Positions 17,719-22,186 of a stretch of 64,000 nucleotides of DNA are shown here, piece by piece (position 1 is the stretch's first letter; the number at the start of each line of letters is the position of its first letter). The notes under the pieces are model-generated. The model was given only the letters and a program-made list of their open reading frames with translations, searched no databases and was not told where the DNA came from. The stretch is from Nitrospira sp. (GTDB taxonomy: Bacteria > Nitrospirota > Nitrospiria > Nitrospirales > Nitrospiraceae): contig JACOEM010000013.1 of the NCBI GenBank assembly GCA_024998565.1, positions 1-64,000 of the forward strand. Reading direction: 5' to 3'. Made by a program: the position numbers and the translations under genes.

Positions 17719-18282
17719 ATGATGATGAACAACGCGCCCGACATCGAAATTCCAACTGATCGCCTCCGCACCCTCTCGTCCGAGCTTCGCGCACAGTCAC
17801 CACACTGGGCTGATCGTCTTGAGCAGGCCACGACGGAACAGGAGCTACGCAATCTCGTGTGCGATCTCTTTAACCTGTCCCATGCCCTGCCGTCCCACAG
17901 AGAGTCCGCTAATGAGACAACCACGCTGGCCGGACGCATCACCCGCTTCATCAACGAAAATCTCCATCGTGGACTGACACTCAAAGTCCTGGCAAATTTC
18001 CTCGGCTATTCGGAGAAATATTGCTCTGATCTGTTTTACCGCATCATGGGTGAATCGTTTTCCGGGTACATGAGACGACATCGGGTCGAACGGGCTCAAT
18101 CACTCCTCACCACAACCGCGCAGACGTTGGCAGAAGTTGCTACAGCGGTGGGGTTCAGCGATCAGTTTGCCTTCAGCCATTTCTTCAAACGCGCGACCGG
18201 GCATTCTCCCAGGGAGATTCGATCCCGGCAGGCACACTCACGGCATCGGCTGACGGTTCACGCCATGCAGAAAGCCCTGTAG
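17719..18282 (+). CDS. AraC-family transcriptional regulator
   Basis: 187 residues. The C-terminal 100 residues form the double helix-turn-helix of AraC proteins: LTLKVLANFLGYSEKYCSDLF for the first, and TLAEVATAVGFSDQFAFSHFFKRATGHSPREIR for the second. The short N-terminal region (about 1-75) is not a cupin effector domain, so the signal is unknown. Its position between the flavin/porin cluster and the bacterioferritins suggests control of iron genes, as for PchR-type regulators, but this is only contextual. GGAG lies five bases upstream of the ATG. Confidence 0.8.
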   Translation: MMMNNAPDIEIPTDRLRTLSSELRAQSPHWADRLEQATTEQELRNLVCDLFNLSHALPSHRESANETTTLAGRITRFINENLHRGLTLKVLANFLGYSEKYCSDLFYRIMGESFSGYMRRHRVERAQSLLTTTAQTLAEVATAVGFSDQFAFSHFFKRATGHSPREIRSRQAHSRHRLTVHAMQKAL

Positions 18283-18534: not shown

Positions 18535-19014
18535 CTAAGACTTCTCAGAATGAATCTGCTCGGCCAAGTATCGATCGAGACCTACTTGCCTGATGGTGCA
18601 GAGCTGAGTCTCAAACCAATCGATATGCTCTTCCGTATCGACGATCATCTCTTCGAGCCGACGACGGGTCGTGAAGTCAGCGACCTTTGTGCAATGGGCA
18701 ATCCCGTCGCGAAGCATTTCCGCATCCTCACGCTCGAAGGCCAGATCGGCTTCCAGCAACTCCGAGACTTTCTTGCCAGCGGCGACGGTGTCCAGGCGAT
18801 CCATCTCCGGAGCCCCCCCCAGGTACAGGATATGATCGATCAGGCCCGAGGAATGGCTGACCTCTTCCTCGGCCAAGTGACTAAAATGCTCGTGGAGTCG
18901 ACCATACCCCCAATGCTTACACGAGGCCGCATGCAGGAGGTATTGATGCACCGCCGTGAGCTCAGTGACCAATACCTTATTCAGGATCTCGAGGACGCCC
19001 TCTTTCGCTTTCAT
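18535..19014 (-). CDS. bfr: Bacterioferritin subunit lacking the haem methionine
   Basis: 159 residues, aligning without gaps to E. coli Bfr. The ferroxidase ligands E18, E51, H54, E94 and H130 are present; position 127 is T instead of E. The haem-binding M52 is replaced by V. It should therefore contribute iron oxidation but not bind haem by itself. Bacterioferritins build 24-subunit cytoplasmic shells that store ferric iron. It lies 35 bases downstream of a second subunit gene with the opposite pattern, so the two probably make a mixed shell. Confidence 0.88.
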   Translation of the reverse strand: MKAKEGVLEILNKVLVTELTAVHQYLLHAASCKHWGYGRLHEHFSHLAEEEVSHSSGLIDHILYLGGAPEMDRLDTVAAGKKVSELLEADLAFEREDAEMLRDGIAHCTKVADFTTRRRLEEMIVDTEEHIDWFETQLCTIRQVGLDRYLAEQIHSEKS

Positions 19015-19049
19015 GCATACCCCCGTTACAACGCCGGGACGGCGCTCGC

Positions 19050-19526
19050 TTAACTGTCCTTTTTGATCTGCTCTGCCAGATAATTCTCAAGACCCACTTG
19101 TTTGATCGTCTCCATCTGGGTCTCGATCCAATCAATATGCTGGTCCACATCTTTCGCCATGTCTTCGAACATGTGCCGTGTCGTAAAGTCACCTACCTTT
19201 GCACAATGCACAACTCCGTCGCTGAGCAGCGTGAGCATTTCCTGCTCCGCCTTGAGATCAAGCTTCAATTGCTCAGGAACGGTCTCTCCGACCTGCACCG
19301 TGTTCATCCGCTGAACATTCGGCACCCCTTCCAGGTACAGAATGTGGCCGATCAACTCGTCCGCATCCTTCATCTCATCGATGCTGCGCTCTCGAACCTT
19401 GTGGTGCAGCCGGTCGTAACCCCAATTGTCACACATCTTTGCATGGACAAAATACTGGTTGATGGCGGTGAGATCCGCGGTAAGCACTTTATTAAGAAGC
19501 TCAATGATACCTTGTTTGGCTTTCAT
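19050..19526 (-). CDS. bfr: Bacterioferritin subunit keeping the haem methionine
   Basis: 158 residues, gap-free against E. coli Bfr. M52, the axial haem ligand at the subunit interface, is kept in SIDEMKDAD. The ferroxidase centre is weakened: E18 is D, H54 is D, E127 is V, while E51, E94 and H130 remain. Its probable role is haem binding and electron transfer in a mixed shell with the product of 18535-19014. GGAGGGA lies just upstream of the ATG. It is first in a two-gene unit reading away from topA. Confidence 0.88.
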   Translation of the reverse strand: MKAKQGIIELLNKVLTADLTAINQYFVHAKMCDNWGYDRLHHKVRERSIDEMKDADELIGHILYLEGVPNVQRMNTVQVGETVPEQLKLDLKAEQEMLTLLSDGVVHCAKVGDFTTRHMFEDMAKDVDQHIDWIETQMETIKQVGLENYLAEQIKKDS

Positions 19527-19849
19527 ACATCCCTCCTCCGGCCTTGGAGCGCCTCATTGCCTGCCTGGCCTCTTGATTGAGACAGATACGAATATGCCCT
19601 CTCTTATGATTCATCCTACACCTTACTTAGACATTCTCGAAAGGGTTGTCAAGCAGAGACATACGTATTTATGAGGACGGTTATCAACATCGCCGAGAAC
19701 ATTTCTCATTGTCCTCATCAGGATGCGACGGTAAACGATCTGCTATGCAAGTAGGCGGCGAGGAGTTGAAGAAAATGGAGGGGAGCAGCGGAAGGGAGAG
19801 CTTGCGCTTCAAAAGCGGAGGATAACAGCAGGCAACAAATCCACCATGG
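19527..19849. other. Intergenic region: bacterioferritin promoter and 3' flank of topA
   Basis: 323 bases between the start of the first bacterioferritin gene and the end of topA, both on the minus strand. A candidate promoter lies at 19624-19652. I see no gene, no clear terminator for topA and no convincing Fur box here. Confidence 0.5.
19624..19652 (-). promoter_or_regulatory. Candidate promoter of the bacterioferritin pair
   Basis: On the minus strand TTGACA (19652-19647) is followed after 17 bases by TAAGTA (19629-19624), a weak -10. Transcription would begin near 19617 and give a leader of about 90 bases. Support is the perfect -35 box and spacing only. Confidence 0.4.
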
Positions 19850-22186
19850 CTATCCGGCTTCACGATAGCCGCACTCTTCATTGCGGCATTGCACCGAGCG
19901 TCCGGCCTGCTTGCTGACTTTCTCAATGAGGAACGGAGCCTGGCACGTGGGACAGGGCTTGTTGATCGGACGATCCCAGAGCGCATATTCGCACTGCGGG
20001 TACCGGCTGCACGAATAAAAGTTCCGCCCTTTTTTGGTGCGCTTCTGAACCAGATCTCCACCACATCCGGGCTGCGGACATTTCACCCCCAGGGCGATGG
20101 CCTTGGTTGTCTTACATTCTGGATAGGCAGAACAAGCCAGGAACTTTCCGAAGCGTCCAGATTTCACCACCATCGGGCTGGAGCACTTTTCGCACTTCTC
20201 GTCCGTCGTCTCTTCCAGCTTGGGAACAATCTTAATCGTTCCATCCGGCAACTTTTCAAAATTTTGCGTATTTTTGCAGGGAGGATCGTCCTTATAGGCG
20301 GGGCACGCGAGGAACTTCCCATTCCGTCCCCATTTGATCTCCAACATGCGGCCGCATTTTTCACAGGGAAGGTTCGTGGGCGGCTCGACGATATCCTTCG
20401 GTCCAGGGATACCTTGAGCGAGTTCCATTTCCCTCACAAAGGGTGTGTAAAAATCGCGCACCGCTGAAACCCAGGGCTTTGTGCCCTCTTCGACTTCATC
20501 GAGCTGCTCTTCCATGTGGGATGTAAATTCCGTATCCAGCAGATCCGGAAATCCCTTCAACAGAAAGTCATTCACCGTTCTCCCGGTTTCGGTCGGGAGA
20601 AACCGCCCTTCGACCTTCTCGACATACTTCCGGTCTTGGATCGTCGAAATGATCGAAGCGTAGGTGGAGGGCCGGCCGATCCCCTTTTCTTCCAGCTCTC
20701 GAATCAGCAATGCTTCATTGTACCGGGGAGGCGGCTGAGTGAAATGCTGTTTAGAAACGAGCCCGAGCAAGGTCTGGGCTTCCTGAGCGACCAGATGCAA
20801 GGATTCACCTTCGCGCAATGCGGGCAGCTGGCGATCTGATTCGTCCTCCGCCTCTTGCTCATTCTTGGGCTTGTGCGACGGCAATTCCTTGTCGGTTCCC
20901 TCTAAGTACACCGCCGTATGGCCGGCGAACTTGACCACGGTGCCGGTCGTGCGAAACACATATCGATCCGGAGTTCCCACCGGAGACGAATCCACACGCG
21001 TCACATCCATGATTGCAGGGACCATCTGTGAGGCAATGAAACGATTCCAAATGAGCTTGTACAAATTGTACTGATCCTGCTCAAGGTATTGCCTGATGGA
21101 TTCGGGGTCGCGAGCCGCGGACGTCGGCCGAATGGCTTCATGCGCCTCTTGCGCGGCTTTCTGCGTCTTGTACACGTTGGGCGTAGCAGGCAGATACTCC
21201 GCTCCGAACCGCTCTCGAATCACAATTCTGGCGTCTTCGGTCGCTTCTTGCGAAATCCTCGGCGAGTCCGTTCGCATGTAGGTAATGAGACCGGTGGGCC
21301 CTTCCGACCCGATTTCAATACCTTCATACAACTGCTGCGCCAGCGTCATCGTCTTCTTCGGGCTGAAATGCAGCTTTCTGGCGGCTTCCTGCTGCAGCCG
21401 GCTCGTGATGAAGGGTGCGACCGGATTGCGTTTCTTTTCCTTGCGCTCGATCGATTGCACGACGAACGGCTTCCCCTGCACGGCATCCAGGATCTGCTGG
21501 GCCCGCTCGCCCGTGCCGATATCGGCATCCTGGCCGTTCACGGAATGCAATTTGGCTTCGAACGCTGGTGGATTGTCCCCAGCCAACAACGCGACGATAG
21601 ACCAGTATTCTTCCGCCCGGAAGGCTTCTCGCTCTTTCTCCCGGTCGCAAATCAACCGCACGGCCACGGACTGCACCCGGCCCATGCTGAGACCACGGCG
21701 CACCTTTTTCCACAGCAACTGACTGCCCTGGTACCCCACGATGCGATCGAGGACTCGTCTCGCCTGCTGAGCCTGGACCAGCTTCATATCGATTTCACCC
21801 GGCGACTTCAGTGCCCGCTTGATCGCCGATTCCGTGATCTCATTGAACAGCACACGATAGACTTTGCCGTCTTTCTTCTTTCCCTTGCCGTGCAGTTCCT
21901 GCGCAATATGCCAGGCAATCGCCTCGCCCTCGCGATCAGGGTCCGGCGCGAGAAACACGGTGTCGACTTCCTGGGCTTTCTTTTTAATGTCGGCAAGGAC
22001 TTTCGACTTGCCCTTGATCGTGACGTACTGGGGTTCAAAATCGTTGTCGAGATCCACACCCAGCTTGCTGGTAGGGAGATCCTTGACGTGGCCGACGGAG
22101 GCCATGACGGAATAGCCACGACCGAGATATTTCGTGATGGTGCGCGCCTTGGTCGGCGACTCAACGATGATCAGCGATTTGGCCAT
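19850..22186 (-). CDS. topA: DNA topoisomerase I
   Basis: 778 residues. The N-terminal TOPRIM domain has E9 in VESPTKA and the DPDREGEA acidic cluster (82-89). The catalytic tyrosine is Y303 in GLITYMRTDSPRIS. The C-terminal quarter carries four four-cysteine zinc ribbons (first CEKCGRM..., last CPTCQAP...CRNEEC). Type IA topoisomerase relaxes negative supercoils by cutting one strand and passing the other. GGAG lies four bases before the ATG. dprA follows the opposite way round in order: dprA lies upstream and is transcribed first, as in many bacteria. Confidence 0.95.
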   Translation of the reverse strand: MAKSLIIVESPTKARTITKYLGRGYSVMASVGHVKDLPTSKLGVDLDNDFEPQYVTIKGKSKVLADIKKKAQEVDTVFLAPDPDREGEAIAWHIAQELHGKGKKKDGKVYRVLFNEITESAIKRALKSPGEIDMKLVQAQQARRVLDRIVGYQGSQLLWKKVRRGLSMGRVQSVAVRLICDREKEREAFRAEEYWSIVALLAGDNPPAFEAKLHSVNGQDADIGTGERAQQILDAVQGKPFVVQSIERKEKKRNPVAPFITSRLQQEAARKLHFSPKKTMTLAQQLYEGIEIGSEGPTGLITYMRTDSPRISQEATEDARIVIRERFGAEYLPATPNVYKTQKAAQEAHEAIRPTSAARDPESIRQYLEQDQYNLYKLIWNRFIASQMVPAIMDVTRVDSSPVGTPDRYVFRTTGTVVKFAGHTAVYLEGTDKELPSHKPKNEQEAEDESDRQLPALREGESLHLVAQEAQTLLGLVSKQHFTQPPPRYNEALLIRELEEKGIGRPSTYASIISTIQDRKYVEKVEGRFLPTETGRTVNDFLLKGFPDLLDTEFTSHMEEQLDEVEEGTKPWVSAVRDFYTPFVREMELAQGIPGPKDIVEPPTNLPCEKCGRMLEIKWGRNGKFLACPAYKDDPPCKNTQNFEKLPDGTIKIVPKLEETTDEKCEKCSSPMVVKSGRFGKFLACSAYPECKTTKAIALGVKCPQPGCGGDLVQKRTKKGRNFYSCSRYPQCEYALWDRPINKPCPTCQAPFLIEKVSKQAGRSVQCRNEECGYREAG

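Follow-up and report, generated by a model that had tools for sequence, protein, structure and literature searches.

A tandem pair of haem-type and ferroxidase-type bacterioferritin subunits in Nitrospira that looks like an independent duplication

Nitrospira genomes carry two adjacent bacterioferritin genes, here called A and B, of which A encodes the haem-ligand methionine with an altered ferroxidase site and B the better-preserved ferroxidase residues. We consider it fairly probable that the two products assemble together, as a hetero-bacterioferritin that arose in Nitrospira by a tandem duplication of its own, with A as shell and haem subunit and B as ferroxidase. The window analysed here, the whole 64,000-nt stretch of DNA, contains A followed by B on the minus strand, co-oriented and separated by 35 nt (Table 1); plus-strand translations at the same coordinates are unrelated to bacterioferritin.

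Table 1. Features of the A/B locus and its surroundings in the window
Feature	Position	Strand	Basis or remark
bfr A, haem-type bacterioferritin subunit, 158 aa	19050..19526	-	ORF, profile, alignment
bfr B, ferroxidase-type subunit, 159 aa	18535..19014	-	ORF, profile, alignment
A codon 52, ATG (haem-ligand Met)	19371..19373	-	
B codon 52, GTC (Val replacing haem-ligand Met)	18859..18861	-	
B codon 23, His (A: Asn), haem-pocket position	18946..18948	-	pocket position, PMC2777505
B codon 127, Thr (T or S across all B rows read)	18634..18636	-	
Topoisomerase I gene, other side of A	19850-22186		Pfam Topoisom_bac
AraC-type regulator gene, convergent with bfr pair	17719-18282		Pfam HTH_AraC
Possible promoter upstream of A, TTGACA-N17-TAAGTA	19624..19652	-	
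Near-palindrome upstream of A, GAGAACATTTCTCATT	19695..19710	.	

Both products belong to the bacterioferritin family. Scores against the NCBIfam model TIGR00754 'bacterioferritin' (A 184.9 bits, B 143.0 bits) lie above its curated cut-off of 125.55, and phmmer aligned each protein to E. coli Bfr (1bcf) over residues 1-157. AlphaFold2 monomer models of A (pLDDT 94.6) and B (pLDDT 95.2) each contained five helices, in keeping with the four-helix Bfr fold and its short fifth helix, with 5zur_A (rmsd 0.7) and 4to9_B (rmsd 0.8) as the respective top Foldseek matches in the PDB and rank-1 TM scores of 0.96-0.98 to solved Bfr. In the numbering given by alignment with E. coli Bfr from NC_000913.3, A has D18, N23, E51, M52, D54, E94, V127 and H130, and B has E18, H23, E51, V52, H54, E94, T127 and H130. 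Every residue that the sequence-only reading had named for the two proteins was correct in this alignment, to which we add that A retains E51, E94 and H130. Measured against the six-ligand ferroxidase centre (E18, E51, H54, E94, E127 and H130), B is exact at five positions and A at three; A is altered at 18, 54 and 127, two of these three changes still being carboxylates.

The loss of E127 is common to both subunits, and full activity of B is therefore not assured. T127 is nevertheless no proof of a catalytically dead B, as it occurs together with otherwise complete ferroxidase residues and M52 in four proteobacterial Bfrs, including the solved 5ZUR. In SoBfr1, the haem-free subunit of Shewanella, iron is coordinated by E18, E51, H54 and E94, and replacement of E128 and H131, equivalent to E127 and H130, made no noticeable difference (PMC12120770), which likewise speaks against the dead-B reading. 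The Achromobacter Dh1f bacterioferritin 5ZUR, the top structural match of A, shares E18, E51, H54, E94, T127 and H130 with B and differs from it in having M52 and N23. Our literature search found no paper on the 5ZUR structure, and we know of no partner subunit for this protein.

The pair is conserved across Nitrospira. Scanning genome contigs with B as query yielded 43 loci, 40 of which (L036-L075) were kept for pair counts; their records are labelled Nitrospira, Nitrospirales, Nitrospirota or, in one case, Nitrosospira, and three are contigs of one assembly, giving about 38 assemblies. Left out were an acidobacterial and a proteobacterial locus with one Bfr each (L076 and L077) and a fragment (L078). 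A lies directly upstream of B in all 40 loci, with a gap of 5-84 nt, and because the loci were retrieved through B, the presence of A beside it is a result rather than a product of selection. A has M52 and D54 in every pair, D18 in 36 (N in three, E in one) and V127 in 39 (E in one), and B has E18, H23, E51, H54, E94 and H130 in every pair, with T (25) or S (15) at position 127. Position 52 of B varies: V in 24 copies, M in 10, I in four, and L and T in one each. The residue split is fixed over the 40 pairs and is more than chance would give; the description of the two residue sets as complementary breaks down at the haem ligand, where Met stands in both partners in 10 of 40, and at E127, which neither subunit supplies.

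A and B are 51% identical in the window and 49-68% identical over the 40 pairs (median 52%). Position 23 separates them completely: all 77 distinct A rows have N there and all 68 distinct B rows have H. Conservation is stronger for A, whose copies are more alike than those of B in 760 of the 780 comparisons between loci. Measured against five relatives by the NG86 method, dN/dS is well below 1 for both genes (0.025-0.035 for A and 0.038-0.076 for B), at dS values of 0.8-1.75 that are partly saturated. The window's B shares 89% identity with the B of Candidatus Nitrospira defluvii FP929003. In two genomes outside the pair count (L030 and L031) the order is B then A, and one genome (G161) has an A-type gene and B on different contigs. 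The canonical dimer contacts at positions 30 and 56 are largely kept by A in altered form (K30, D56), whereas B has A or G at 30 and S or A at 56 and so has lost them.

Known two-subunit bacterioferritins offer likely functional parallels. In Shewanella oneidensis SoBfr12 (PDB 9IIG), six haem-free and six haem-binding homodimers build one shell (PMC12120770); as in Nitrospira, the haem-type gene comes first and the haem-free gene second, M52 is confined to the haem type, and E18, E51, H54 and E94 lie in the ferroxidase type. The window's pair has the same make-up, with one partner carrying Met52 and the other lacking it, and with ferroxidase residues kept in the Met52-less partner, save for E127, and decayed in the other. 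SoBfr1 is of other origin than Nitrospira B and differs from it at position 23 (D against H), at position 52 (K against V) and by an additional residue ahead of the helix-D His that B lacks; in haem-free dimers D23 forms salt bridges at the interface (PMC12120770). The pairs also differ in divergence, partner identity being at most 45% in the tandem-duplication hetero-Bfrs of PMC12120770, below the values for A and B. The bicistronic Bfr1/Bfr2 pair of Magnetospirillum gryphiswaldense is functionally split in a similar way, the M52-less subunit holding the ferroxidase centre and the M52 subunit an altered one (PMC6529640), with Q18, A54 and M131 as the altered residues there and D18, D54 and V127 in Nitrospira A.

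Alignment also bore out the likeness to the Neisseria tandem pair that had been proposed: the N. gonorrhoeae subunits (NZ_CP119142.1) have E18, D23, T52, H54 and E94 in one, ferroxidase-type partner and L18, N23, M52, A54 and N127 in the other, a division that corresponds to B and A. In Magnetospirillum the haem-free gene comes first, the reverse of the Nitrospira order. Unlike Nitrospira B, the haem-free gonococcal subunit has D23 and an extra Asp before the helix-D His, and it falls in the proteobacterial haem-free clade. In Pseudomonas aeruginosa, haem-free and haem-binding homodimers of FtnA and BfrB (PDB 3R2H, 5D8Q) share a shell (PMC8945002), an arrangement that the Nitrospira pair would have in common with them; in contrast to Nitrospira, the P. 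aeruginosa genes are not in tandem, the BfrB centre is full (PMC8945002), and FtnA lies in another clade. The string 'Nitrospir' does not occur in the main text of PMC12120770, no paper among the matches listed in our searches of openly accessible literature concerned a two-subunit Bfr of Nitrospira or Nitrospirota, and literature searches found no single- or mixed-shell experiments on Nitrospira A and B.

From these residues and the published hetero-Bfr work, as far as PMC12120770, PMC6529640 and PMC8945002 describe it, we infer a working model in which co-assembly, dimer composition, activities and Bfd use in Nitrospira are all carried over by analogy. A would build the basic 24-subunit shell, and A2 dimers would hold haem between two M52 residues and receive electrons from a Bfd-type ferredoxin, leading to iron release; the ferroxidase site of A, altered at D18, D54 and V127, would probably be slow. 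B would enter the A shell as B2 dimers and carry out fast Fe(II) oxidation through E18, E51, H54, E94 and H130, its haem site apparently gone in the host species. A could manage without B, and B probably could not manage without A; the loss in B of the 30/56 contacts fits such dependence and parallels what has been proposed for Magnetospirillum Bfr1, which self-assembles poorly (PMC6529640). A Bfd-type ferredoxin of 71 aa is coded elsewhere in the same genome. The 300 most expressed genes of N. moscoviensis include two bacterioferritin genes that lie next to each other (PMC6606698), presumably A and B. If the model is right, Nitrospira holds a second, separately evolved bacterial ferritin shell that splits oxidation and haem-mediated release between two subunits.

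Genomes with A and no B bear on how far the subunits depend on each other. We searched 137 genomes of the host family with B. A match at E <= 1e-15 was present in 115 of them, and 33 of these had a single match; the 23 of the 33 that were read all carried an A-type gene with N23, M52 and D54. We tabulated 21 A-only loci, 19 with D18/V127, one with E18/E127 and one with D18/S127, and two further genomes were A-only, one with B reduced to a broken remnant (G127) and the other being G027. Broken B copies also occur in G009 and G206. Absence of B from draft genomes is weaker evidence than absence from complete ones, and there is no B beside A in G189 (one contig, 99% complete) or G070 (eight contigs, 99% complete). 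Conversely, no B without A was found among the loci read; the stretch at L113 lacks A, and an A-type gene lies elsewhere in the same genome. The earlier suggestion that both subunits are needed for a working shell is hence doubtful for A, at least in these relatives.

More distant relatives extend this series. Nine single Bfrs of Nitrospirota outside the order (L118-L126) have E18, M52, H54, E94, E127 and H130, with N at position 23 in eight and S in one. A-type genes of the sister family within the order (L067, L110, L111, L114, L115 and L116) have D54 together with E18 and E127, and several have no B in the stretch read. Grouping the D54-type Bfrs with A as one clade was not rejected by AU test (p 0.371 with the acidobacterial L076, 0.356 without it). 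Stages that could be intermediates in such a split are thus alive in relatives: a single canonical Bfr, a single Bfr with D54, A still carrying E18/E127 in pairs, B with or without M52, and A alone. If the split is real, the order of its steps could be tested directly with natural proteins of abundant nitrifiers. At L115, the A-type gene adjoins another Bfr in which every canonical ligand and M52 are present, so that this pair is composed differently. L076 carries a single A-like Bfr (D54, E18, E127) inside the Nitrospira-side clade, through transfer or a binning error.

With five metal-capable residues (D18, E51, D54, E94 and H130) and a solitary existence in many genomes, A may itself be a competent ferroxidase, and the split weaker than drawn above. 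Taken to its end, this would make A a haem bacterioferritin of full activity whose site has changed yet still works, and B an accelerator or regulator that can be dispensed with instead of the catalytic half, an account we regard as possible and rather doubtful. It draws on the 19 of 21 tabulated A-only loci that keep D18, D54 and V127, on the stronger conservation of A, and on the D54 relatives with E18 and E127, which indicate that a lone gene can work with D54 in place. The loss of E127 and the shortening of E18, however, resemble the decay of the haem-type partner in N. gonorrhoeae, the Magnetospirillum differences E18Q, H54A and H131M are similar in kind (PMC6529640), and the other ferritin-domain proteins present in the A-only genomes checked could oxidise iron in place of B. 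A and B could also each form their own shell, as two homo-oligomeric bacterioferritins with different roles expressed from one operon. Solitary A genes agree with separate shells, as does the position of the single-Bfr relatives beyond the order as outgroup of the pair; we nonetheless think this unlikely, given that B was never seen without A in the loci read, that it has lost both dimer-contact residues, and that every solved or studied tandem pair that we met in PMC12120770 and PMC6529640 co-assembles.

The co-assembling hetero-bacterioferritin that we favour could in principle have obtained B by transfer, B then being orthologous to the haem-free Bfr/Ftn subunits of proteobacteria, which it resembles at positions 18, 51, 54 and 94, in T127 (in a gapped alignment) and in being mostly non-Met at 52. 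The trees make this highly improbable. In the main tree, built from 99 of 167 rows after removal of columns 18, 23, 52, 54 and 127, Nitrospira A and B group with their near kin in a single clade (support 99/88), and P. aeruginosa FtnA, A. baumannii Ftn, SoBfr1 and 9h1u_M lie apart from it (100/99). Within the Nitrospira clade, A is supported at 99/94 and B at 91/78 with all 48 rows, or 99/94 without L074 and L075. A second tree of 67 rows, including eleven plasmid-collection loci, agrees, with Nitrospirota and one Chloroflexota row together at 99/91. AU tests rejected the constraint of B with the proteobacterial haem-free subunits (p 0.0163 and 0.0012), and we reject transfer in this form. All eight haem-free rows have D23, and all eight carry an additional residue ahead of the helix-D His (four uncut rows and four printed chains), whereas B has H23 and lacks the insertion before H130; the 51% identity between A and B also tells against a foreign source. 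The AU rejection and the lack of both markers in B imply that the ferroxidase-type subunit arose at least twice, and A and B look like an independent duplication rather than shared descent with the known haem-free subunits. Accordingly, the 'same division of labour' that the sequence-only reading had seen in Neisseria and Magnetospirillum survives as likely function, that of a tandem haem-type/ferroxidase-type pair, and not as common descent.

The haem half of the split is clade-dependent and not general. M52 occurs in the B copies of L058 and L060-L066, which form one clade, and in those of L074, L075, L099, L107 and L109. The first clade includes UW-LDO-01 and two CMX-labelled records, which we take to be comammox Nitrospira; D50 and Q53 accompany M52 in its B copies. 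Elsewhere in the pocket, M52-bearing B copies remain B-like (H23, L26 and S55). On the tree, 11 separate losses are required if M52 was never regained and three changes in all if regain is allowed, so that M52 may possibly have been regained in part. An AU test on L058-L066, a group picked after the tree had been seen, argued against its M52 as an early-branching relic (p 0.013 against a position outside the V52 crown). Partial copying of A into B near codon 52 was also dismissed as the source of the Met, DNA identity not being raised there. N23 is listed as a haem-pocket residue (PMC2777505), with which PMC10301331 and PMC3728335 agree. A speculative reading, to which we give little credence, is that the two-fold site of B has been rebuilt, with invariant H23 newly coordinating haem, or another metal, where the two subunits of B2 meet, and residue 52 thereby able to vary (V, I, L, T, C or M), including back to Met in some clades; B would then carry a haem site caught mid-switch between ligands and not a dead one.

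Finally, we examined the surroundings of the pair. An AraC-type relative is present in 13 of the 40 named loci and topA in 15, the loci ending at 3-kb flanks or contig ends. Of 41 upstream stretches, 13 contain the possible promoter of A in its strict form and 34 in a looser one; a consensus scanner did not pick it out, its rule requiring the second hexamer to end in T. The near-palindrome GAGAACATTTCTCATT was found in 13 of 41 upstream stretches, all from close relatives, and has one exact copy in the 4.13-Mb genome; it is possibly the site of a local regulator, for which the convergent AraC-type gene is a candidate. A Fur box upstream of A is not claimed, the best matches in the 41 stretches reaching 11-14 of 19 positions against the E. 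coli consensus. The same genome encodes two more ferritin-domain proteins (L003 and L004) and a short rubrerythrin-like match, one of the stretches also matching the rubrerythrin model.
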